Assembly (NCBI GenBank): GCA_949130485.1
Contig: OX422183.1
Location: forward strand, 8,832,636 to 8,896,635
Origin: Agelas oroides
Lineage: Eukaryota > Porifera > Demospongiae > Agelasida > Agelasidae
DNA: 64,000 nucleotides
Direction: 5' to 3'
The position numbers were made by a program, and so were the translations under genes. The notes below the pieces were generated by a model. The model saw only the letters and a program-made list of their open reading frames with translations. It ran no database searches and had not been told where the DNA came from. Positions 1 through 40,866 of this stretch are shown piece after piece; the stretch's first letter is position 1; each line of letters opens with the position of its first letter.

Positions 1-2187
1 CTTACTTCTACTAAGCCAGAACCTTTCAATCCCCAACAGCCAGAAACCAGTGTACTGTGCATGTCATTTGCTCAACCAGAGCAGTCTTTACATCCACCTG
101 CCCAACAGCCATCTTCTGAACACCCCCCAACATCTTCCCCATGCGTTATCGACTACACAATGAAAGTTGATCCATCCAAACCAATCCGACACTACCAGAT
201 GGAGCTAGCTGAGCCTGGCATCAATGGTGAAAACTACATAGTCTGTGCTCCGACTGGCACAGGTAAGACACTGGTTGCTGGCCTCATCATTTCACATCAC
301 CTTCAAAAGAGACAAAACTTAGAAAAGAGAGTCGTTTTTGTTGTCCCAACAAGACCACTCGCTGAGCAGCAAGCAAAAGAGCTTCATAAGCTCATACCTG
401 GAGCTCAAGTTGAGTCGAGCATTGGAGATGATGTTGGATTGACAATCAAAGATGTTCTCCCACATCATGACATCATTGTCTGCACAGCTGGTAAGCTACT
501 GAATGAGATGAAAGGGAGCTTGGTTGCTTTTAGCAATCTTGGTTTGATGGTACTTGATGAATGCCACCACACTCGCAAGAATGCTCCATATGCCAAGATA
601 ATGGAAAAGTATCTTAAAGAAAAGCAGAGAAGTGGAGCCAGGGGTCTTCCCCAAGTGGTTGGCTTGACAGCATCTCCTGGAGCAGGGGACAATCCAAAGT
701 TAGAAATGGACAAAACGATTGACCACTTGATCTCACTCTGTGCCCTCATGGATGCTACAAGTGGGATAAAAGTTGTTAGAGAGAATGTAGCCGAGCTGGA
801 TCAGTACACTAATAAGCCAACACACACCCTCAAGATTCTCAATTGTCGTGATCAAGGTGAAGAATTCATTCGACTCATCACAGATGAAATGACAAAGCTT
901 GAAGATCTAGTTGGCCTGAAATCTCCTTTCAAAAAGTGGTCACAAGAATATGAAACCTGTGTTCAAAAGGAGAAGCAGCCTTTGGAAATGAGTCTTGACC
1001 CTGAGCACAGAAACCATATCCGCCTTTATGATCTCCTGCGTTGCTACTCACAAGCACTGAATGTCTACATGGACTTGCGTCAGAAAGATGCCGTCAGTGT
1101 CCTCAGCGAGTTTACTGGGCTACCAGCTGATGAGCAAGCTAACGACATTGAGAAACAGCTGAAACAAAGCCTTGTAGAACTGATCCATAAGCTAACCCTG
1201 CTACCACCTGTGCAGAATCCCCTTTTGCGACAGGCTGAAGAAATCCTTCAAGACCAGTTTACAAAAAATCCAGATTCAAAGGGAATACTTTTCGTGCGTA
1301 CAAAGAAGCATGCTTCATCTATGTGTGATTGGCTATCAGTAGGAGCCAGATTACAAATTCATCCTCGGATGATCACTGGCCACACTCGAGATACAGGAAC
1401 TGGCATGACGCAAACTGAGCAAGAAAAGGTGATGGAAAGTTTTCGCAAAGGTGAATGCAATGTTCTTGTGGCTACTTCAGTGGCTGAAGAGGGTCTGGAT
1501 GTACCAGCTTGTAACCTAGTCATTCGATTTCAGCATGTCTCCAATGAAATTGCCAGAACCCAAACACAAGGCCGAGCCAGAGCAGCAGAGAGTAAGGGCT
1601 ATGCTATCCTTGCCAGCGGTTCAAAGAAGCGATTGCAAGAGATGAAGAACATTGAGCTGCAAGCTCTTGTGGATGAAGTACTGCTGGGTGGTTACTTCCC
1701 AACTAGTCAATTTCTGCAGGAAATGCTGTGTGAGGGTCAGCAGAAGATCATCCAAGAACGTAGGCTTAAAAGAAAATTGAAGCAACAACAACAGAAAACA
1801 AATGCAGGAGGAGACATTCGGCTAATATGTAGGAAGTGCAAAACGTTTGCCTGTTCTGGTTCAGATATTTTTACTGTAGAGAATTCCACCCACTATGTTG
1901 TGCCTGATGAAGAGTTCAAAGTGCATAAAATAGTTAAAAGGCCCCACCACTCTCCAAAGCAAATGACACAAAGTATGAACAAAACACACAAAATCTACTG
2001 CGCTGAGTGTGATGCTGACTGGGGTATAATGTGCATCTGGCCAAAAGAAGGCCACGAATTTCCAGTCCTTAAGTGCAAGAGCTTTATTTTCGAGATCAGA
2101 GGAGTTCGACAACACATAAAGAAGTGGTCAGATGTGAAATTTGAGATTCCTCCTCTCTCTTTGAACAGTGACTCTGAATCTGATTAG
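1..2187 (+). CDS. RIG-I-like receptor helicase, copy 1 (5' partial)
   Basis: Cytosolic double-stranded-RNA sensor of the RIG-I/MDA5/LGP2 family, truncated by the window start. Counting from the ATG at 61, residues 64-70 are Walker A (PTGTGKT), followed by the DECHH Walker B box, the TAS motif III, the helicase-C motif VATSVAEEGLDVPACNL and motif VI QTQGRARA. The C-terminal regulatory domain has two zinc-binding pairs (CRKC and CAEC, the latter before DADWGIM), as in the family RNA-end-binding domain. The frame is open back to base 1 and its upstream residues match those before the equivalent ATG at 14404, so the ATG at 61 is probably internal. Upstream exons, likely with a Death domain as in copy 2, lie outside. 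Helicase and regulatory domain share one exon. All catalytic motifs are intact; I infer a working receptor gene. Confidence 0.95.
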   Translation, partial: LTSTKPEPFNPQQPETSVLCMSFAQPEQSLHPPAQQPSSEHPPTSSPCVIDYTMKVDPSKPIRHYQMELAEPGINGENYIVCAPTGTGKTLVAGLIISHHLQKRQNLEKRVVFVVPTRPLAEQQAKELHKLIPGAQVESSIGDDVGLTIKDVLPHHDIIVCTAGKLLNEMKGSLVAFSNLGLMVLDECHHTRKNAPYAKIMEKYLKEKQRSGARGLPQVVGLTASPGAGDNPKLEMDKTIDHLISLCALMDATSGIKVVRENVAELDQYTNKPTHTLKILNCRDQGEEFIRLITDEMTKLEDLVGLKSPFKKWSQEYETCVQKEKQPLEMSLDPEHRNHIRLYDLLRCYSQALNVYMDLRQKDAVSVLSEFTGLPADEQANDIEKQLKQSLVELIHKLTLLPPVQNPLLRQAEEILQDQFTKNPDSKGILFVRTKKHASSMCDWLSVGARLQIHPRMITGHTRDTGTGMTQTEQEKVMESFRKGECNVLVATSVAEEGLDVPACNLVIRFQHVSNEIARTQTQGRARAAESKGYAILASGSKKRLQEMKNIELQALVDEVLLGGYFPTSQFLQEMLCEGQQKIIQERRLKRKLKQQQQKTNAGGDIRLICRKCKTFACSGSDIFTVENSTHYVVPDEEFKVHKIVKRPHHSPKQMTQSMNKTHKIYCAECDADWGIMCIWPKEGHEFPVLKCKSFIFEIRGVRQHIKKWSDVKFEIPPLSLNSDSESD

Positions 2188-4555: not shown

Positions 4556-5990
4556 TCACTTGGTGCATACAGCACAATTTAGTTCCTTAAAATCGTTGTA
4601 AGGTGGGCAAGGAATACCAGTACAGGTAGCCTCAACATGATAAAGTAAACCCATGTTTACAAAACCAGCACTGCCTGGTATGGATTCCAGATCTTTGTCC
4701 ATGCATATGTATGTGCTCTTTGAATGACCTCTATTCTCAGACAGCAGGTATCCAATATATTCCAGAGTCCAGGTTGAAGGGCATGAATTCTTAGCAGGAA
4801 TGATTATAGTAGTTCCTCTTGCTGCAGCATAGCACACAGCACACGGTATATTATGATAGCTTTTGCCAGCCACATTAGTACCTCTGTATTCAGTGCCATA
4901 TAGACCATTATTCCATCTTCCTGGAGTGTAGTTGGTGTCGTAGTCAGGATCACTAGGTAGGCACAATCTATCCACTCCTCCTCCTTTATCAGTGTAGTAG
5001 CCACCAGCAGCTATTCCTGCATAGACCAGTTCAGTTCCTGTTGTATTTGGACAGGTTGTTCTTCCCCACCTGGTATACACCACTCCACCACCACTTGGAC
5101 CAGGAGGGCCTGGGGGGCCTTGGTTTCCTGGTAGACCTATACCGGGCTCTCCCCTCTCCCCATGCTCTCCTTGGGGTCCAGGTGGGCCTATTGGCCCTTG
5201 AATACCTGGATCACCTCTGCTCCCATCCTTGCCATCTCTTCCATCACGACCATCTCGACCTCGCAGTATCTCAATGTAGGGTATAGAGCTTGTGTTCTTG
5301 TCACCATTATTGGCTTCCCTGAGTCCAGTGTTTCTTGGAGTGCGGTGAAGGGCTCCGCCTGCATATAAATTAGTGCAAGGAACAGGTTGTTAGTAATTTG
5401 ATAGACTTTTATTTCATTAGAAATACAAAATGAATGCTGCAAATGTGAAGTATGTATGTAACAGCATGGCACACAGCTTGCTGGAGCAGTGTTGTTGAAC
5501 AGTGTGATAGGGTTACATCACTTGAAAATAAGTTATCTCTTTAGTTGAAGGAGCAATTTTCAGTGGGCATACCTAGCACATTCTTCCCACTATAGTATAG
5601 AGGTACGACTAGCACAGATAATTTGCAGACAACAGCCAAATGAACATACAATACACACACAGCAGAGTGGAAACACATTACATGTGGTATGCTGCACCTA
5701 GGACCTATGCATAGGTATCATAGGTACAAAAACTATAGCTAAATCTCCCACACTAACACCCTCTAGATGACTCAACAAAAATTACCTCACTATCTCTGTC
5801 CAATTTTAACTTCACTACACAATGATTACATGCGCAAAGAGATATTTGCAGCCTCCAAAGGAAGACAAGGAGGTGCTTGGTAATGCAACAAACTAATAAA
5901 AGAAACAGTTAAGTTGTTATATGTACCTTCCATAGTAGCTATACAAATTACAACAGTAGCAGTAAAGAATTTCCATTCAAGTTTGTCCAT
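4556..5990 (-). CDS. Short-chain spongin-like collagen, two exons
   Basis: Secreted extracellular-matrix collagen of the sponge short-chain type. Exon 1 is 5990-5927, encoding M-DKLEWKFF and a hydrophobic stretch (TATVVICIA) that reads as a signal peptide; it ends G|GTACAT in phase 1. Exon 2 is 5358-4556, after a TATATGCAG acceptor, also phase 1, giving 288 residues in total. A short linker is followed by about 20 Gly-X-Y triplets (for example [13 protein letters not shown] and [16 protein letters not shown], with one imperfection near GIGLPG). Then comes a cysteine-rich globular domain from [10 protein letters not shown] to the terminal CAVCTK, containing CAVC, GYL and CPPYND. That domain, including the final CTK, matches my memory of freshwater-sponge short-chain collagen C4. 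Expected role: pericellular or spongin-like skeleton. The matching phases make the two-exon model convincing. Confidence 0.9.
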
Positions 5991-8550
5991 GGCTTGTTCA
6001 CCAACTATCAAGTCACTCAATAATAGATTTCTGCAAGGTAAATGTACAACAGAAATGTTAGCTTTAGCTACACAATATTTGAAAAAACGTGACATTCCTG
6101 CTAGTAAACTATGTAATCCTATGACAATAAGGCATTGTGTGATGGTTATTTAGTCATTATACCGCATGACAGCAGCTGCCGCTTTGTGACATTGTTGTAA
6201 AACTACTCCTGTGTCAACACATTATGATGTATGCTTCAAGTAGCCTCTTTGGGAAATTTAAGATTTTCTCCAGTGGTCAAATGGAAGTATATATTACTGT
6301 TAATTATGATGATGATGGTAATTAGTATAAGTTATCCAGTAAATGCAGTAATTAAAGGTGTACAATAAGTTAAATGGTGTCTTTAGCTGCCTGGAACTCT
6401 TCCTTCTTGGCAAAAAAAACAAAACAATAAAATTTCAACTCAGTACAAGATGCACAGAGAGACCTATTTAAGGCACCAGATACTAATGGACATGCAGTGG
6501 AAGGCAGAGAGTGAGGACAGAGCTGCAGGAGTACCTCAAAGCAGGGAGGGAGGTGTGGAGGATCGGAGAGGATATATAGCTGGGTATGTGAGGCAGGTTG
6601 GGAGTTTCATGCAGGTGAGTGGTCAAAAAGTGCTGGAAAGTGTGACAATCTTCCAGGTTTAAAGATATCCCAGCTGAATTGTTTGGAGCGTCTTCCCTCC
6701 CAAGACCACACCTACAGCTTCTGAGTATAGACTCCAGAGAGCTTTCAATAACGAGAAGTAAAAAGTCAAGGGGTCCTAGAAAGTAACATACCAAAATCTC
6801 AAGATTTTGTTTTGCAGCCACCACAATGCTGTGAGACAAAATCCAGAACGGAAAGCCTGGATTCAAGGTTAAGGTTTTGCCCCAGATTTTCAAGATTTCA
6901 GCAAGATCTTACAGTATACTTTGACACTGCTAGGTTAATGATATTAAAACTTTCAACTGTGACTTCAGTGGAGGGTATACAACATCTCAAGTTAACCAAC
7001 CCTCCTCAACCAACACAAGCTTTGTGACCTCTTTCACATCATTCAAGCAGTTGTGTGACAGCCTCAAGGCATACAATCCCATAGTGGAGTGTTCTGATGA
7101 GAAAGCTCATTGACACACCATCACCACTACCCACTCATCCTAAAAAGCATGGTTTGCACACTTGATCTTCATAGTTAACTACATTACACATGTGTAATTA
7201 TGCACCTGTGTGCTAGTGCTGTTTTAATTAACTAAAAATGAAACTAAAACTAAAATGTATTTTAGCTACAGCTGAGCATTTCTAGTATTTGAACTAAAAT
7301 AAAAAATACCAAGATTTTAGTTACTGTACTAAAACTAAAATGATGATGGAAGATTACTGCTGACTAACTCTAAATTACTGTAACTAAAACTAAAACTAGA
7401 TTCTTAGATCCCCAAAATATCACTAAAATTAAATAGTTTCTTGAATCCAGAATAACTAAAACTAAACCTAAGTAGTTTCTTAAATCCAGAATAACTAAAA
7501 ATAACTTGTTTCTGAGCTACAAAATAACTATAACTAAAACTAGTTTCATGGATCAAAAATAACTAAAACTAAAACTAAAACTAAAATAGAAACCAGTAAC
7601 TAAAACAACACTATTGTGAGCCTTATGTAATGAGTCATGCCTATATAAGCTGCTTGTACCACTCTGACATTGCAAGTTTGTACTGACATACCATCAACTT
7701 AGTTAGGAAAATCAATGTTCAAATTCCCAATGATGGTTGCCATAAATGGCTTGTAAATCGATACAGTTTAGGTGATTTACTCAAGTACAACACAAACAAG
7801 GCATGATTCAAGGGCATACATACTTTTATTGTAATGTATGCATATCATTATAGAACTCCTCTTTTGTTGTGATATCCATATCATGGGAACTGAAAATTGA
7901 ACTATAGTGTCATGAACACCCTGTTTCTGACGTATTTACTGTCAATTCCAATTTAGTTCGAAATTAAAGTTACTTAACCAGTGGATCTTCACAGAAACAA
8001 TGTTAGTAAAGTATTAATTTTGATGTAGTTTCCAAATAGCTATCAGCGTACCCCTAAGAATTATATAGCTGGAAAATGGTTGCAAGTCCACCAACCTTCA
8101 TGTGTGGGGGTTGTCGAATGATGTGTAATTTTAATGGGCTCCTATAATTGGAGGCATACCTTGGATCTACATGTGGTGGTAGTGCTTGTTTCAGCTTGCA
8201 GAACATGCAGACAAATATTGAGTACTGACTGAGTGCAGTACTGATGTTTACAACATGTTAGCTACACACCTTACAGTCAACTTTCAGTTCATGTTCAACA
8301 AAAGTTCAAACAACGAATCTACTAGCATTGTTTCAGCATATTGTCAGCTTGCAGTTTAGGAAGATAGGAGTGACACACCCCTCTCATAGTACTGGTGGTC
8401 ACCACCTTGAAGTCCAGTGTAAAGAGGAGTTCAGCCCTCGTGCTATTGAAGTACACAGGAAATGTCACCTAGGAAAGGAAGACAACACCACATGACTAGC
8501 ATCACATGCTGGAATTGAAACTACAAACAGCTCAAGAAACAAAACTGTCC
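5991..8550. other. Intergenic, repeats only
   Basis: Upstream region of the collagen gene. Apart from the AACTAAAA repeat described separately, it contains a stretch near 6790-6877 (around GACAAAATCCAGAACGGAAA) that resembles one half of the foldback hairpins at 50091-50188 and 50695-50800. No gene is supported. Confidence 0.5.
7215..7612. repeat. Degenerate AACTAAAA repeat with inverted ends
   Basis: About 400 bp dominated by imperfect copies of AACTAAAA. The left edge AGTGCTGTTTTAATTAACT and the reverse complement of the right edge (AGTGTTGTTTTAGTTACTG) match, so the block has terminal inverted repeats and may be a small transposon whose interior expanded. A related block in opposite reading sense lies at about 9850-10149. 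No direct flanking repeat was found. Confidence 0.6.
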
Positions 8551-9160
8551 AATACTTTTTGTGCATAGAAAGAAGCATGCTTCATCAATATGTGATTGGA
8601 TATCCCTACTCCCAGTAGCAACCAGGTGGCGAATTCAACCTCGCATGATCACCGGCCACACTCGAGAAACAGGGCCAGAGCAGCAGAGAGCGAAGGCTTC
8701 ACTATACTCGCTAGTGATTCCAAAAAGCCATACCAAGAATTGAAAATGATGAGCTGCGAGGGCTAGTTGAAAGAGTATCGCATTTAGCCAACTCGTCAAT
8801 TTCTTCTGGAACATCTGTCACAGAAACAAGAGCAGATAATTTGACAACGTGAGCTTAAAAGAAGTTTGAAGCAACAGCGACAGAAAACAAATGCAGGAGA
8901 AGACATTCGACTAAGGTGTAAGAGGTGCAAGACATTTGCCTGTTCTGGTTCAGACGTATTCTCTCTAGAAAATGCCACTCACTATCAGGTAAAGAGTTAA
9001 AAGCGCATAGTTACAAGGCCCTATCGACCCCCAAAGCAAATGACACAAAGCATGAACAAAACACACAAGATCTACTGCACCGAGTGTGATGCTGACTGGG
9101 GTATCATGTGTATCTGGCCAAGTGAAGGATGTGAATTCCCACTTCTGAAATTTTCCCTCT
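8551..9160 (+). pseudogene. RIG-I-like receptor pseudogene, 3' fragment
   Basis: A broken third RLR copy between the two intact ones. It begins in helicase-C near the KKHASSICDWIS motif, keeps the PRMITGHTRETG stretch, then jumps directly to the RARAAES region: about 180 bp carrying helicase motif V are deleted at a shared GCCAGAGC. Further down are frameshifts and in-frame stops (for example GGC TAG and TTT AGC context after 8760), recognisable zinc-site remnants (CKRCK, CTECDADWGIMCIW), and loss of similarity near 9160. The residues LLPVATRWR are shared with copy 2 but not copy 1, so it derives from the copy 2 lineage. Nothing suggests a product. Confidence 0.9.
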
Positions 9161-11318: not shown

Positions 11319-11328
11319 GGGACTTTCC
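11319..11328 (+). promoter_or_regulatory. Consensus kappaB site upstream of RLR copy 2
   Basis: GGGACTTTCC, an exact NF-kappaB consensus, lies about 350 bp upstream of the proposed start codon at 11678. It is followed by a GC-rich palindrome-containing stretch that looks like a promoter. Sponges have Rel/NF-kappaB proteins, and induction of antiviral sensors by NF-kappaB is established in other animals; use of this site is inferred. Confidence 0.5.
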
Positions 11329-11677
11329 CTCCTCTGCGCTGGCCGGCCCCATGGGCCGCCCCCACAGAAGGGGCTGGCCCGCGAAACTGTATGCTTCATG
11401 AAAATAACAGAAACAGTGTTGTTTCAGCACAAGTGCAAGCATCAATGGAGTCGGAAACTTCTCAAGGTACGTACAGTAAACTTACCTTTCACGCGATGTC
11501 TTACCTGTAAAATGTTTTTAGTAGCTAACTTGCTGTACAAGCGGGGCAGTCGGCCAGGGATGCGCAACGTACCTATCTATTTTTCTTGCAATACAAAGAA
11601 GCCTGGGTATGAGTATTATACTATGGTGATGGAAAGTAGGTTTGCTGATACAAACTTAAAATTGGATACTTTTGTTG

Positions 11678-14600
11678 ATGTTTCGACTGAATGCTCCGGG
11701 TCAAAACGTTGGCAAAAGTAAGTTGATATCAGAGAATCTTCTTTCTATCATACAGGAGCTAAGAAGCCACTAATGGCCCATGGAGATATTTGACTTGCAT
11801 TATCGAAATTACAGCCCGCAGGCCAAAGCTCAGTGAGCTGCAACGTTATGTGAAGCCATTTGCAGCCTCTCAATGGGAGGAGCTGGGCATTGCACTGGGG
11901 CTGGCAGATGAGGATGATGGGCAACTCCTATCAGAAATTGAGAGCAAGAAGGGTGGAAATGAGGGGAAATGCTTCATGGACGTGGTGACTACTTGGCTTA
12001 AAGGGAATGGAAAGTCACCAAAGACCTGGGGGACTTTGCTGCACTGTTTGGAGGAAACAGAGATGCATCAAGCAGTCAGATCAATCCAGGAAAATGTCTT
12101 GAAATGTAAGCTGGAAGTTAGAATAATCTCACCTGTAGCATGTTTCTCAGGATTGTCATGTCACTGGATTTCCCCCACTTTGAAATATGTTTATGCCAGC
12201 AGCTTGTCTTCTAGGTATACTGGGATTTCCCACTAATATGTATTAGGGGCTGTATGTGCCATATGGGAATGTTAACTTCCCAGGAATGGTGGGTATCTCC
12301 CAGCTTTATTTGAATCAGCAGTTTCCATGGTATACTATGTCATGTGGCCTGGCGTTGTCAGCATGTTCTTTTCTTAGAAATATAAACAAAACATTTATGG
12401 TATAGTGTGGAGGAGGATTAATGGAGTGTCACCAATGTTACTAGCCTAATGCCCCAAAAGTTCCTTCCTCTTAAGTACAAAGAAGTATGAGTATTATACT
12501 ATGGTGATGGAAAGTAGGTTTTCTGATACCAACTTAAAATTGGGGAGTGCAATGTTTGGAGGAAACCAACATGCACGGAGCTGTCAGATCAATGCAAGAA
12601 AATATCCTGAAATGTAAACTTTCATAAGTTATTCTGCACAGTGAGGTTATGTGTTTACACATACTTCTAAGTATTGTTAGCAACTGGAATTCCCCCACCC
12701 AACAGCCCGTACAACTGACAAGAGTAGCTATGATCTCTATTTACCAGGAATGATGGGTATATCCCTTATGTATTAATGTTTGTCAGCAGTATTTTTGGTG
12801 TCATGTAGACCTCGGTGGATTGTGCCAACATACTTTTGAGTGTAACAAGATCGTAGCATAGGTAATATGTATTGAATACGTATACAACTTGACATTGCAA
12901 GGGGCTTCAGGGGCTAGCCTTTTCCTTTGGAAATTTACTGTGTATTTGTGTCAAGTAAATTATGGTTTGCATTAGCAAAGTTAATGCATCATGGAGCTAG
13001 TGTGAGCAAGTGTTGCTGGTGACTTGGGAGGTATAGCAGCTTTCCTTTCTCAAGCCTGGCTTCCCTAACATGCACCTAGAATCTCAGTGGCCCTTTCCCT
13101 TCTCTGCTGCTGTAGTCTAGTCTACAAGGGCATACTTGTACAAGCTTAGTGAAGGACTCTGACAACATGTGGTAGGGGAACACAAGCATGCACTCGCTTG
13201 CTTGCATAATGATAGTATGAAATTTTTGATGAGCTTATCCCAGGCTGGTTAAAATATGTTATAGCTACAGCTATGACTACTGTAGCCTAGGCAGCTTCTG
13301 TGTCTACTCTACATGAGCATTTTCAGAAGGCTCACCCAGACCCCTCCACAGGCTGCAGTACCGATGCACCAGGGCCAACCAACTGCAAGATGTTCAGGCG
13401 GAGTTCCTTTTTCCCAACATCATGCACTAGCTGTTGTCAACTGCAGGCTACTGATCCCCCAAACAGCCTCTTGTAATCAGTATTCATATTCCTGAATTCT
13501 CTGAAATCTGTAACTCTGAGGTTATTCATAGTTTTTCTGGTACTGCAAACCATGGCATCAGTGCTAGCAATGTATCCACTTAGCCTTGTCCCCAGGCCCC
13601 TCCCCCCCCCGAGGAGAGGCCTGGTACACACTGTTTGCGCATGCGCATAATATCCCCAGTTTTTAGGGGATTCGTAAAATAACGAATACTTGCCGTACAT
13701 TAGGTACATATACGAACCGTGCATGTTCGTTTCACGCAAATGAGCAAGAGTGCTGCGCGGTTCTAAAGTGGCTGCTTCTCCGGGTAAATCGCTGTTTGGT
13801 AAAGCTTTATCGTGCGCCGTTTCTGTTCTAAAGGCCGGTCGTGTTCAAGACGGAGCCGCTACAAGTTGTGTACGAAGAGAGATAAGTGTTTTCATTGGCT
13901 ACGAACGGGCCTTTCTGGGAAATCAATTTGTTACCTTTCTGTTTGAGTGTACGTTTTGAAGAAATGATACCGCCACGTCTGAAAAGTAGTATTCTAGTAG
14001 TATTCTGCAAGTCAAATTGCCGCTGGAGTCTATTTCCGAAGAAAGCTTTGTATTCTTGGTTAGTATAATCTTCCGCATACAGACAAGGTAAGTGCACGAA
14101 GTTTTTACGGAAAATATAACGGAATATATCGCGCATGCGCAAACTGTGTACCAGGCCTCTCCTCGGGGGGGAGGGGCCTGGGGACGAGGCTAAGTGGATA
14201 GTATCCACTATGCTATAAGGAATAATACAAAGTCCCACTTTTGCTTTAATGAACTAATATATAGCTAGCTAATTATCTTATTCCTAATTTGTTGTGTAGC
14301 ACAATGGTCAACTGGACTCGAACCTGAAGAACAGCAGCCAACCCTTACTTCTACTCAGTCAGAAGCTGCCAATCCCCCACAACAAGAAACTAGTGTACTG
14401 AGCATGACACTGGCTCAAACACCAGAGCCAGAGCAGTCTTCACATGCACCTTCCCAACAGTCATCTACGCAACCTTCTGAATGCCCCAAAACATATTCCC
14501 CATCTGGTATCGACTACACATTGAAAGTCAATCCATCCAAGCCAATCAGACAGTACCAGATGGAGCTAGCTAAGCCTGGCATCAATGGTGAAAACTACAT

Positions 14601-16569
14601 AGTCTGTGCTCCGACTGGCACAGGAAAAACGCTGGTTGCAGGCCTCATCATTTCACATCACCTTCAAAAGAGGCAAAACTTAGAAAAGAAAGTCATTTTC
14701 ATTGTCCCAACGAGACCTCTCGTTGAGCAGCAAGCAAAAGAGCTTCAAAGCCTCATACCTGGAGCTCAAGTTGAGTCGAGCATTGGAGATGAGGGTGGTA
14801 TGACAATCAAAGATGTTCTCCCGCACAGCGACATCATTGTGTGCACAGCTGGTAAGCTAGTGAATGAGATAAAAGGCAGCTTGGTTGCTTTCAGTGATCT
14901 TGGCTTGATGGTGCTAGATGAATGTCACCACACTCGCAAAAGAGCTCCATATGCCAAGATGATGGAAAAGTATCTTGAAGAAAAGCAGAAAAGTGGAGCC
15001 AGGGGTCTTCCCCAAGTGGTTGGCTTGACAGCATCCCCTGGAGCGGGAGAAAACCCAACATTGGAAGATGACAAGACAATTGACCACTTGATCTCACTCT
15101 GTGCACTCATAGATGCCACAAGTGGGATAAAAGTTGTTAGAGAGAATGTAGCTGAGCTGGACCGGTGCACCAACAAGCCAACATTCACCCTCAAGATTCC
15201 CAGGCGTCGTGATCCAAATGAAGAATTCATACGGCTCATCATAGATGAAATGACAAGGCTTGAGGGTCTAGTTGACCTGAAATGTCCCTTCAAGAAGTGG
15301 TCCCAGGAATATGAAACTTGTGTTCAACAGAAGAAGCTGCCTTTGGAAATGAGTCTTGACCCTGAGCTCAGAAACAGCATCCGCATTTATGATCTCTTGC
15401 GATGCTACTCACAAGCACTGAATGTCTACATGGACTTGCGTAAAACTGATGCTATTAGTGTTCTAAGCGGGTTTACTGGTCTGCCAGCTGATCAGCAAGC
15501 TAATGATGTTGAGAAGCAGCTGAAACAAAGCCTTGAAAAGCTTATCCATAAGCTAACCCTGCTACCACCTGTTAGAAACCCCCTCATGCAACAAGCTGAA
15601 GGAATCCTACAAGACCAGTTTACAAAAAATCCAGATTCAAAGGCAATACTTTTCGTGCGTACAAAGAAGCATGCTTCATCAATATGTGATTGGATATCCC
15701 TACTCCCAGTAGCAACCAGGTGGCGAGTTCAACCTCGCATGATCACTGGCCACACTCGAGAAACAGGGTATGGTATGACACAAGTCGAACAACAAGAAGT
15801 GATGGTAAGCTTCCGCAAAGGTGAATGCGATGTTCTTGTGGCCACTTCAGTGGCTGAAGAGGGTCTAGATGTACCAGCTTGCAATCTAGTCATTCGATTT
15901 CAGCACGTCTCCAATGAAATTGCCAGAACACAAACACAAGGCCGAGCCAGAGCAGCAGAGAGCGAAGCTTTCACAATTCTCTCTAGTGATTCCAAAAAAC
16001 CATACCAAGAAATGAAAAATGATGAGCTACAAGCACTAGTTGAAAGAGTACTGCATTCAGATTACTTCCCAACCGGTCGATTTTTTCAGGAACGACTGTT
16101 AAAGACACAACAACGGATTATCCGAGAACGTGAGCTCAAAAGAAACTTGAAGAAACAGCAACAAAAAGCAAATGCCAGAGAAGACATCCTGCTAAGGTGT
16201 AAAAAGTGCAAGACAGTTGCCTGCTCTGGTTCAGATGTTTTTTCTATAGAGAATGCTACCCACTATGTTGTGCCAGATGAAGAGTTCAATAGGCATAAAA
16301 TAGTTAAAAGGCCCCATCGGCCCCCAAAGCAAATGACACAAAGTATGTACAAAACACACAGGATCTACTGCGCTGAGTGTGATGCTGATTGGGGTATCAT
16401 GTGTATCTGGCCAAGTGAAGGATACGAATTCCCACTTCTGAAATGCAAGAAGTTCATTTTCGAGATCAGGGGAGATTCACATAGTGTAAAGAAGTGGTCA
16501 GATGTGCCATTCAAGATCTCTCCCATCTCTGCCCGTTGTTCAAACAGTGACTCCACTGAAAGTGACTGA
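11678..16569 (+). CDS. Death-domain RIG-I-like receptor, copy 2
   Basis: Three-exon model, 866 residues. Exon 1, 11678-11717 (MFRLNAPGQNVGK), ends A|GTAAGT in phase 1. Exon 2, 11815-12105, follows ATTACAG and encodes a Death domain (residues 14 to about 108) with QWEELGIALGL, then WLKGNG and TWGTLLHCLEE; it ends T|GTAAGC in phase 1. Exon 3, 14300-16569, follows TTGTGTAG, also phase 1. After a Pro/Gln/Ser-rich linker come Walker A TGTGKT (216-221), DECH (317-320), TAS (354-356), VATSVAEEGLDVP, QTQGRARA and a C-terminal regulatory domain with zinc pairs CKKC and CAEC. Vertebrate RIG-I and MDA5 carry two CARDs; here a single Death fold takes that place. Expected role: cytosolic RNA sensing with Death-domain signalling. 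Helicase certain; exon 1 choice is the weakest part. Confidence 0.88.
12479..12625 (+). pseudogene. Collapsed duplicate of the RLR copy 2 5' exons
   Basis: Inside intron 2 of RLR copy 2. Bases from 12479 repeat the sequence around 11594-11672 (ACTATGGTGATGGAAAGTAG), then at AAATTGG the match jumps to the end of the Death exon around 12040-12105 (TGTTTGGAGGAAACC, then GAAATATCCTGAAATGTAAA including the donor). Everything between, including exon 1 and most of the Death domain, is missing. It is the scar of a local duplication followed by deletion. Confidence 0.8.
13581..14200. mobile_element. Foldback element in RLR copy 2 intron 2
   Basis: Arms of about 75 bp: TAGCCTTGTCCCCAGGCCCC on the left and GGGGCCTGGGGACGAGGCTA on the right, both running inwards to a GCGCATGCGC motif. 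GTATCCACT occurs immediately before the left end and again at 14201-14209, a 9-bp flanking repeat. Between the right GGCTA and that repeat lies AGTGGATA, the inverted form of the target, an oddity. The interior has no coding frame of note. It belongs to the TAGYCTCG family. Confidence 0.8.
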
Positions 16570-38100: not shown

Positions 38101-40866
38101 TTAGTCTGGAGAGAACAACCATCATGACAGGTAGTAGCGTGTATGTAGAGTCTGTTTTGTTACAGAAACTTATACTTAGAAGTACAGGAGCCAGCCTCGC
38201 AAACAGGGTGGGGCTAATAATGACAGGGGCGTGGCTCAGTCCTTGTACGCGTGCGCAACATGGCACGCGCCATTTCGCATTTTCTCACTTCGATCGTACA
38301 CTTCAAGTTCGTCTTCTTTGATATGATCCGTTCGTGAAAATTCCGCCAGCAACAAAATGGTACCTGAGCTTAGTGGAGGAGAGGGCTTACATGTTCGATG
38401 TCCCACGGGAGCGAATGTCTTTCGGTGACAAGGAGTGCGGAGCGGTTACATCGCTGAGACTTCACACCACCGTGGTAAGAAGTGGCTGAAAGTCAATGAA
38501 TTTATAAATGTACTTTTTTTTACTACATATAAAATAGTTAAAGTAGCTATTTCCGCGTAAGGATACATATAGCTAGCTATAGAGTTGTACTGCAGTAGTA
38601 AAGTCGCTAAAGAAATATTGTTGAATGTGTCATTTCTTTCTTTCTACCTTATACCTCCCTGCTTGTTCCCTTCTCATCCTTCCACCAACTACCAGACTAG
38701 CTAGACCAGTTAGTCTTCCTCTATACTGATCTTGTCTGAGAGATCGTGGTGGTGATAGGTACACAGAGTGAGTCTGCAGCCTTCCCAAAGACATGTTCTG
38801 AAGGGAGGTTCTGGAGGCTGTATATGCACAGAGAGGAAAGGTACGAGATAGGGAGAACAAAAGCTTTTATTTAAAAGCCCCAGATGATTAATTCACATCA
38901 CTTGTATATCCATACACAGGACCTTTGTCTCCAGGCTATTAATGCCTCATTGTTCAGAAGTACCCAGGCCACAAGGTTCAATCTCCACGCTGCCCTGCAA
39001 GTGGTTTAAACTGCTGGTAAGTAAGCTTGTACTATATACTTATTACAACTGCAGTTGTCTGAATTTGCATTTAGGTCTTCCTCCTTAATTTGTTCTGCAC
39101 TGGATTGGGGGTGGGGGGAGCCATAGTACATTTCTTAATGAGGTGCGGAGAACATAAGTTGTACACAAGGCCTTGTATTTTCTGAAATGTACCTGCTGAG
39201 TGGATGACTCTTCTGGTTGGGAATTGTCCAGTGCTTGCGTTTTTGTACTCTTAAATTTGCAAACCTAGTTTGTATCATGACCATCTTCCACTATACCTTC
39301 CAGGCCTGTTTACTTCTCCTCACTACACCAACTGACTACGGAGGCCCCAGCTGCTTGAAGAGGCTCATAGCCAAGTGAGTGGTTACAATGTTTAATACAT
39401 CTAGCCTTATCCCTGGTGATTACGTTCAGGGATTTCCATGTATGCATGAATAACAACAAACAAGATGAGCCTTTCTGAGATGCTGACTGTGTGATTTCTT
39501 CACATACCCCGGTAGAGGAATTGCATTTGAAATGATAGCTGCCACACTTTCGAAATATTTTCAGTACACATGCTGCCATGTTGGAAGGCAATTGAAGGAA
39601 AGCAATTATACAAAAATTACATTTCTACAGACCTGTTTCGGGTGTTTAACTTCAACTTTAGACTATGCAAAGGGTTAGCTAGTGAAGACATTTAACACAC
39701 ATCTGTGAGAAATGAATGCTACTGGTAGGAGCATTGCTAGGGCGGGAAGTTCAATGCGCTAGTATGATAATCACTACTGTTTTGTCCTCCAAGATGCCCC
39801 ACATGACTTGTATAATGGAATAATAGAATGATTGCAGTTCCTCTATCGCATGACCTGACTAGTATATGAATAATTATTGCATGTGCTATTCTTTCACAGA
39901 TGGATGTTAACAATTGAACACAACTAACTGATTGATAGGTACATAAAATGTATATTATATGCATAGTTGAATGCCATTTTTGTATGTATAGAGTATATTG
40001 ACACATTTTTGTACAATGAAGTACTTCAATCACATACGTATTTGTATAAAATGCTGTAACGTAAGTTATAGCATAACTATTGTTTGCTTGTTTTAGTATA
40101 TTCATGTTTTCAACTCAGTGTATGTCACAATTATATTTTGCTTACAGTCAAGAGTGTTTCATTGGAAATTCCATGTAAAAGCTCCACCCACTAAGTGAGG
40201 GGTCAGCTGCATGTCAGTTGACACACTGCTAATTTTGCACACCAATTTTGACACATTGGTAGAATAACACACTTGTTATTTAGCACACTTGCTGAATAGC
40301 ACACTACTAATTTGGCACACTGTCCAGTTAGCACATGTGTAGTTTTGACACACCTAACAATTTGACATGCGTGTAGGTGTGTCAAAACTGGAGACATCAC
40401 TTTTGACACACTTTTTGTGTCAGATTAGCACACTTTTTTTTTTCTGTGCAGGCTACTGGCACTGTTAGTGTGTCTCCTTGTATGGGGGACAATCGTAGAA
40501 TTGGAACTCAACCTACCTGAATCTCGAGACAAGATTCAGTGGATAGCTATTGCTCTCTGGTCAATAGAAACATTTCCACAGATCACTTTAAACATCAAGC
40601 GTCAATCAACTAGTGGTCAAGCCACCACTTCTGTTCTGATAGCATTGGTCGGCAAAACAACTGATTTTCTAGTGACGTACGGTCTACTGATGCCTCTTCC
40701 CTATGTAGTCATGTGCTACTTCTCAAGCTCAAGCGCCTTTATCAACACATTCCAGGTTTGCCGTTATCTGTGTGAAAATCTTCAATTTGGTTTTGTTTCT
40801 TCAGATATCATCTACCCTAAATATTTTGTAAAGATCGATAGAATAACTGAACTTAGTGAGGATTAA
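32198..40866 (+). CDS. PQ-loop (SLC66-like) transporter, four exons
   Basis: Seven-helix PQ-loop membrane protein, 286 residues; relatives such as PQLC2/Ypq1 export basic amino acids from lysosomes or vacuoles. Exon 1, 32198-32513, has helix 1 with the first PQ motif (LLPQVL, P41-Q42), helix 2 (SFLWAVANFTASLVNLFF) and helix 3, ending C|GTAAAC in phase 1. Exon 2, 38958-39016, follows TTGTTCAG. Exon 3, 39304-39374, follows CTTCCAG. Exon 4, 40452-40866, follows CTGTGCAG and carries the second PQ motif (ETFPQITLNI, P191-Q192) and the last helices. Phases 1/0/2 match at each junction and the sum is a multiple of three; leaving out exon 2 or 3 breaks the frame. Transported substrate cannot be told from sequence. 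Intron 1 is 6.4 kb because of a satellite. Confidence 0.85.
32529..32900 (+). repeat. GTGTGCTA-rich segment at the 5' end of intron 1
   Basis: Begins CACACAGAAAAAAACTGGTGTGCTA only 15 bases past the exon 1 donor (read 32528 on) and repeats GTGTGCTA/TGTGCTA many times, with a duplicated CTAGTTCCTCATCACCAAAA unit. It mirrors the segment ending at 40452. Confidence 0.7.
32942..38044 (+). repeat. Intronic satellite, ~28 monomers of 176-181 bp
   Basis: Tandem array within intron 1 of the PQ-loop gene. The anchor GAATGTACACA recurs at 33132, 33317, 33493, 33676, 33857, 34033, 34214, 34390 and so on to 37986. Two monomer classes are visible: a 181-bp type with AAGTGGTAAAATCACAACCG and a 176-bp type with CGTTGGTAAAACCACAACCG. 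From 34566 the order A, A', B, B' (718 bp) repeats with occasional loss of one B, a higher-order repeat. Each monomer holds the imperfect palindrome ATACCCATTTGGTAT or its variant. The array ends abruptly near 38044. No coding potential. Confidence 0.97.
38391..38474 (+). other. Exon-like segment inside intron 1, unrecognised
   Basis: A frame open from 38322, with first ATG at 38391, reads MFDVPRERMSFGDKECGAVT and on to a GTG|GTAAGA donor, phase 0. It does not fit the phase of exon 2 of the host gene, so it is not a simple alternative first exon. I do not recognise it; it could be a nested gene or chance. Confidence 0.25.
40210..40452 (-). repeat. TAGCACAC-rich segment at the 3' end of intron 3
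   Basis: Rich in GCACAC and TGACACAC, the complement of the motif at 32529-32900, and ending TTAGCACACTTTTTTTTTTC then TGTGCAG, which is the exon 4 acceptor. The last 25 bases are nearly the inverse of the first 25 at 32528, so the repeat supplies the polypyrimidine tract and AG. Confidence 0.7.

Follow-up and report, generated by a model that had tools for sequence, protein, structure and literature searches.

The DNA analysed here, referred to as the window, is a stretch of 64,000 nucleotides from the sponge Agelas oroides (C1:8832636-8896635, C1 being contig OX422183.1); the genome searched amounts to 259 Mb. The window contains a gene, called copy F below, for a predicted RIG-I-like receptor (RLR) in which a Death-type exon lies 5′ of the exon for the helicase and the RIG-I C-terminal domain (RD). 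The same arrangement is present in four of four intact-frame RLR genes of a cluster on C1, so that one predicted exon join becomes a conserved gene family. The parts of copy F are as follows (positions without a contig name are those of the window, and a slash within a splice signal marks the exon boundary):

11815-12105, forward strand: Death-domain exon of 291 nt, phase 1-1, acceptor ttacag/CC, donor AAAT/GTAAGC
12106-14299, forward strand: phase-1 intron of 2.2 kb, with an inverted-repeat element and the decayed tail of a Death exon in it
12548-12620, forward strand: Death-exon remnant from a duplication, 82% identical to 12040-12112
14300-16569, forward strand: helicase exon, a single large exon with acceptor TGTGTAG/CA, stop codon included

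The helicase exon encodes, in this order, a linker, DEAD, Helicase_C and the RIG-I C-terminal domain with its CxxC..CxxC cysteines. In Pfam it matched DEAD (8.6e-27), Helicase_C (3.6e-18) and RIG-I_C-RD (PF11648, 8.9e-25), and a search of PDB returned RIG-I (7jl1, E 5.5e-91, query residues 76-753), followed by LGP2 and MDA5 entries. All five RLR copies described below retain the APTGTGKT, DECHH and GRARA motifs as well as the CxxC..CxxC in the RD; the four RD cysteines are presumably zinc-binding. Judged by these domains, the focal protein is a RIG-I-like receptor. The two N-terminal CARDs of canonical RIG-I and MDA5 (V1 type) were not found in the focal gene.

Joined in phase 1 with consensus splice signals, 11815-12105 and 14300-16569 give a single open frame, about 860 codons long. 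The predicted order is Death domain, P/Q/S-rich linker, superfamily 2 (SF2) helicase and RIG-I-type RNA-binding domain. The original prediction had joined the two exons by their matched phase 1 signals; both the signals and the open frame are confirmed, and the paralogues agree. We accept the join mainly because a homologous Death exon with phase-1 signals is present in four of four cluster genes. At the level of sequence the Death-helicase-RD gene is real, the 12105/14300 junction itself being an exon model. Within the intron, 12476-12543 is a copy of 11592-11665 and adjoins 12548-12620, the copy of the Death-exon tail 12040-12112. By these matches the pair is the remnant of a duplicated 5′ part of the gene, in which the front of the second Death exon is gone. 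The inverted-repeat element of the intron spans 13573-14200 (arms 13573-13656 and 14121-14200, about 91%) and has short matches elsewhere in the window.

The genome search with PF11648 gave six places, all on C1: F, the copies A, C, D and E, and a broken piece in the window. These RLR copies and their Death exons are:

C1 from 8819864, reverse strand: paralogue D, a divergent RLR copy with a PF11648 match
C1:8820041-8820316, reverse strand: Death exon of D, 35% identical to that of F
C1:8822753-8823037: Death exon of C, 79% identical to that of F
C1:8823809-8826063: paralogue C, helicase-RD with a PF11648 match
C1:8829989-8830273: Death exon of A, 83% identical to that of F, outside the window
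Window 1-2187, forward strand: paralogue A, a tandem helicase-RD exon
Window 8550-9151, forward strand: broken RLR copy in two pieces with stops, a pseudogene
C1:8359119-8361377 (locus L050, C1:8352500-8362499): copy E, dispersed, 0.46 Mb from the cluster

D, C, A and F, all stop-free in the matched frame, make up a cluster of 31 kb; broken pieces lie at 8826903-8827926 of C1 and at window 8550-9151. A genome search with the focal Death exon gave at least 150 matches at E<=1 (150 of 342 candidates scored, RLR copies included), and the best three other matches listed sit 5′ of A, C and D, one each. All four genes, on both strands, therefore have the Death exon on the 5′ side of the helicase exon and with the same phase 1, even though one of the four is only 47% identical in its helicase exon. 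F, A and C share the acceptor (acag/CC or gcag/CC) and donor (AAAT/GTAAGC) of the Death exon and the helicase acceptor (TGTGTAG/CA); the splice signals of D are likewise in phase 1, at sites of its own.

The ratio of nonsynonymous to synonymous substitution rates (dN/dS, NG86) in the Death exon is 0.66 for F-A, 0.36 for F-C and 0.28 for A-C, with no indels among the three; in the helicase exon the corresponding values are 0.29, 0.32 and 0.27. For the linker (first 75 aligned codons) the F-A ratio is 1.09 by NG86 and 2.2 by YN00. In copy E the helicase and RD are open; compared with F, A and C, they have a dN/dS of 0.33-0.38. Counted from the acceptor of copy E, the seventh full codon is TGA. 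The 6.6 kb upstream of this copy showed no Death exon, nor was one found nearby among the focal-exon genome matches listed. Copy E may be in decay, or it may be an LGP2-like, Death-less form whose reading starts at a later ATG. No relatives were found in the genome_contigs or viral_contigs collections. A CA/TG simple repeat (2190-2306) lies directly 3′ of the stop of copy A.

The class of the N-terminal domain was examined with several kinds of profile. In Pfam, Death (PF00531) was the only family returned for the focal exon (18.9 bits, E 0.0017), and the other copies likewise gave no death-fold family but Death (19.9 bits in A, 14.3 in C, 25.3 in D); against the curated cut-off of 22.6 bits, one of the four, D, passes. 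Neither CARD nor CARD_2 matched the focal exon (Pfam, E up to 10) or the corresponding exons of A, C and D (E up to 1). Profiles were then built from the four RLR Death domains (A2), from these four plus seven other domains of the genome (A3), from seven CARD-type domains of the genome (A4, in which five of seven pass the CARD_2 cut-off and L045 passes both CARD and CARD_2) and from the seven non-RLR Death-like domains also contained in A3 (A5, with four of seven over the Death cut-off, L013 and L015 under it and L026 without a Death match at E 0.1). Of 26 non-RLR Death-like loci of the genome (L013-L038), 13 were scanned with Pfam and 6 of these exceeded the Death cut-off. Against PDB, A3 gave 11 rows at E<=0.001, all of them RIPK1 (best 5.6e-5) or FADD (best 1.2e-4); up to E 10, Death domains made up 27 of 30 rows and CARDs none, judged by molecule name and match position. 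The control profile A4 found BCL10, APAF1, MDA5 (8e-7) and RIG-I (2.5e-4), which indicates that the method separates Death from CARD. By hhalign, A2 scored 99.6% against A5 and 0.2% against the CARD set A4, the former value arising partly by construction, since the A5 members were picked from focal-exon matches. Profile A2 alone gave 7 Death-domain rows among 10, none below E 0.21, and phmmer with the open frame of the Death exon as a single sequence against PDB gave two chance matches only.

The structural approach was less decisive. A single-sequence AlphaFold model of the Death exon has six helices at low confidence (pLDDT 56.8), and Foldseek returned 36 matches, none at E<=0.001, in which Death, DED, CARD and unrelated chains were mixed. 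Structure prediction had been proposed as a check on the fold; because of its low pLDDT and the mixed, noise-level matches, the model was not used for classification. The profile search of the exon for Death, CARD and DED, proposed alongside it, did return the Death family and not CARD. Together with the paralogue exons, the passing score of D and the PDB profiles with their CARD control, this supports the claim that a Death domain replaces the CARDs. On sequence evidence, the assignment to Death rather than CARD is well supported.

The 5′ end of the gene is less certain. Two candidates for a first exon are listed:

11678-11717, forward strand: first exon as first proposed, with ATG start, phase 1 and GTAAGT donor, inside a dispersed inverted-repeat element
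11445-11466, forward strand: candidate preferred here as first coding exon, encoding MESETSQ, in phase 1 with donor CAAG/GTACGT, best placed outside the repeat element

The short phase-1 first exon of the original prediction does have its ATG and GTAAGT, but it lies in an inverted repeat (11627-11673 / 11704-11750), where it takes in the loop together with some of the right arm. A genome search with 11590-11760 found 17 places: the segment itself, two cluster copies (left part of the element) and 14 dispersed matches that are 77-85% identical. The ATG at 11678 is included in each of the 14; 3 reach through 11717 and 11 stop between 11687 and 11698. As part of such a repeat, 11678-11717 is probably not a true exon, and it has no counterpart in the 85.6-kb cluster region within the allowed mismatches. 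In the 1 kb 5′ of the Death exon, a scan for phase-1 ATG-to-donor candidates gave six rows in F and two in D, both from one ATG (MSYK); A and C had none. With six such rows within 1 kb, the phase match of any one candidate is no evidence for it. The candidate at 11445-11466, which has a longer open form starting at ATG 11391, also in phase 1, is tentatively taken as the first coding exon; it too lacks a cluster counterpart (85.6-kb region, up to 7 mismatches in 28 bases). About 120 bp 5′ of the candidate start at 11445, GGGACTTTCC occurs at 11319-11328 as a single copy in the window; we take it to be a textbook NF-kB site. Two of the four copies (F and C) have a strict NF-kB motif in the 1.2 kb that precede the Death exon; about 0.14 is expected per 1.2 kb. 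Overall this is not significant and too weak to claim as a regulatory signal.

Yao et al. 2022 (PMC8998645) describe two 'A1-type' (Amphimedon-like type 1) RLRs, Death-DEXDc-HELICc-RD, in Amphimedon queenslandica, and A1-type members also in lophotrochozoans, with the suggestion that the combination of Death and helicase may be ancient. The exon model of copy F likewise has an N-terminal Death domain fused to helicase-RD, a likeness drawn from the description and not from the sequences. The Death-helicase-RD architecture is thus already published for a sponge, and the surprise is limited accordingly. The difference lies in the genes: two in A. queenslandica, as against four clustered ones here plus one dispersed copy without a detected Death exon. 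The cnidarian C-type RLRs described in the same text also have a single N-terminal death-fold domain, but theirs is a CARD. Vertebrate RIG-I and MDA5 share with copy F the homologous helicase and RD, an N-terminal death-fold signalling domain and a linker, and differ in having two CARDs in place of one Death domain. Copy E resembles LGP2 as a helicase-RD protein without an upstream signalling exon found; unlike LGP2, it belongs among the close paralogues of the Death RLRs and has a stop codon shortly behind the acceptor. In other papers, Amphimedon RLRs are classed as LGP2-like (PMC8260672), unlike in Yao et al., and sponge RLRs, from species including Amphimedon and Ephydatia, serve as an outgroup (PMC8476169, with no word beginning 'death' in the main text available). 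According to PMC8195603, TRADD-N with Death-like domains is greatly expanded in Amphimedon, and cnidarians and brachiopods have RLR-like receptors to which TRADD-N is fused; PMC13012725 describes the Amphimedon FADD as supersaturable, which the receptor and effector of the death-inducing signalling complex (A0A1X7U321, CASP8) are not. In the available text of the open-access literature, including PMC6723221, PMC9505182, PMC12723187 and PMC11251625, no functional test of a sponge RLR was found. So far as this literature goes, the new elements are the four-gene cluster with a Death exon throughout, a copy in which no such exon was detected, and unfused MDA5-like CARDs.

The presence of a Death exon in each cluster gene suggests that the alarm is passed through Death-domain partners. 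We think it rather probable that the Death-domain RLR recruits a Death-domain adaptor. If it works as RIG-I does, binding of RNA to helicase and RD would release the Death domain and bring several of these domains together; such clusters would nucleate an adaptor of the FADD/RIPK1/MyD88 kind, and this would lead to a caspase (through DED) and/or NF-kB output, replacing the CARD-MAVS step. The exon structure, the domain classes, the paralogues and dN/dS below 1 are read from the DNA; splicing, RNA binding, freeing of the Death domain, its partner and the output are inferred. Signalling by a Death adaptor in place of MAVS seems plausible, and RIPK1 and FADD as nearest PDB neighbours give only a hint as to the choice of pathway. 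The genome offers matching parts: the search for DED gave 40 matches (28 over cut-off), that for TIR 17 (all over cut-off) and that for the Rel homology domain one. With the Death-like domains, these are components from which a Death-DED-caspase or NF-kB route could be built.

CARD_2 (PF16739) gave 12 genome matches at E<=1, 6 of them over cut-off, five on contig C6 and one on contig C15. There was no CARD_2 match on C1, the contig of all six RLR places, PF00619 (CARD) not being covered genome-wide. The five on C6 are exons within about 90 kb (C6:8883430-8973035) and are not fused to an RLR helicase. A CARD profile including four of them matches the CARDs of BCL10, APAF1 and MDA5. With four of four clustered RLRs carrying a Death exon and no CARD_2 on C1, the question of CARD-MAVS-free RNA signalling becomes testable with defined genes. 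More tentatively, this may be a lineage without any CARD-using RLR, in which every intact clustered sensor acts by Death-Death contact with a FADD/RIPK1-like adaptor on caspase and NF-kB, the MDA5-like CARDs standing unfused elsewhere. If true, a MAVS-independent state of animal RNA sensing would be preserved, possibly older than the CARD form.

Several observations weigh against the reading as a Death-domain RLR that signals through a Death adaptor. First, the focal Death domain alone falls under the Pfam cut-off, as do those of A and C. Second, the F-A ratio of its exon (0.66) lies not much below 1 and is based on 27 base changes. Third, the modelled fold is of low confidence, with CARD and Death chains mixed among the noise-level matches. 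Finally, CARDs resembling MDA5 CARD2 occur on other genes of the genome, so a CARD-type adaptor could be reached indirectly. This last point also enters the strongest alternative, namely that the Death domain serves sensor self-assembly or autoinhibition (for example, Death-Death filaments on double-stranded RNA), the output passing through another factor, such as a CARD protein, and not through a Death adaptor. Death folds assemble homotypically, and the four related Death RLRs could co-assemble, the domains of A and C being so close to that of F; proteins with MDA5-like CARDs are at hand. However, nothing specifically favours this explanation, and the P.TW motif, common to the RLR Death domains and other Death-like domains of the genome, equally fits heterotypic contacts; we regard it as unlikely. 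Much less likely still, the Death exon could belong to a separate upstream gene and its join to the helicase exon exist on paper only. The repeats in the 2.2-kb intron and the uncertain first exon would allow this, but four genes on two strands, one of them so divergent, share the arrangement. That the domain is a divergent CARD, and the gene an ordinary CARD-type RLR, is scarcely credible: the low-confidence model and the three copies under the Death cut-off speak for it, against the passing score of D, the PDB rows of A3 with RIPK1 and FADD and no CARD, and the 0.2% by hhalign to same-genome domains whose own profile finds CARDs. The reading with a Death-domain adaptor is therefore the one that we retain.

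Two further open frames of the window were noted: 4556-5389 (reverse strand) has a collagen triple-helix match (5.1e-07), and 40429-40866 (forward strand) a PQ-loop repeat (1.6e-10).

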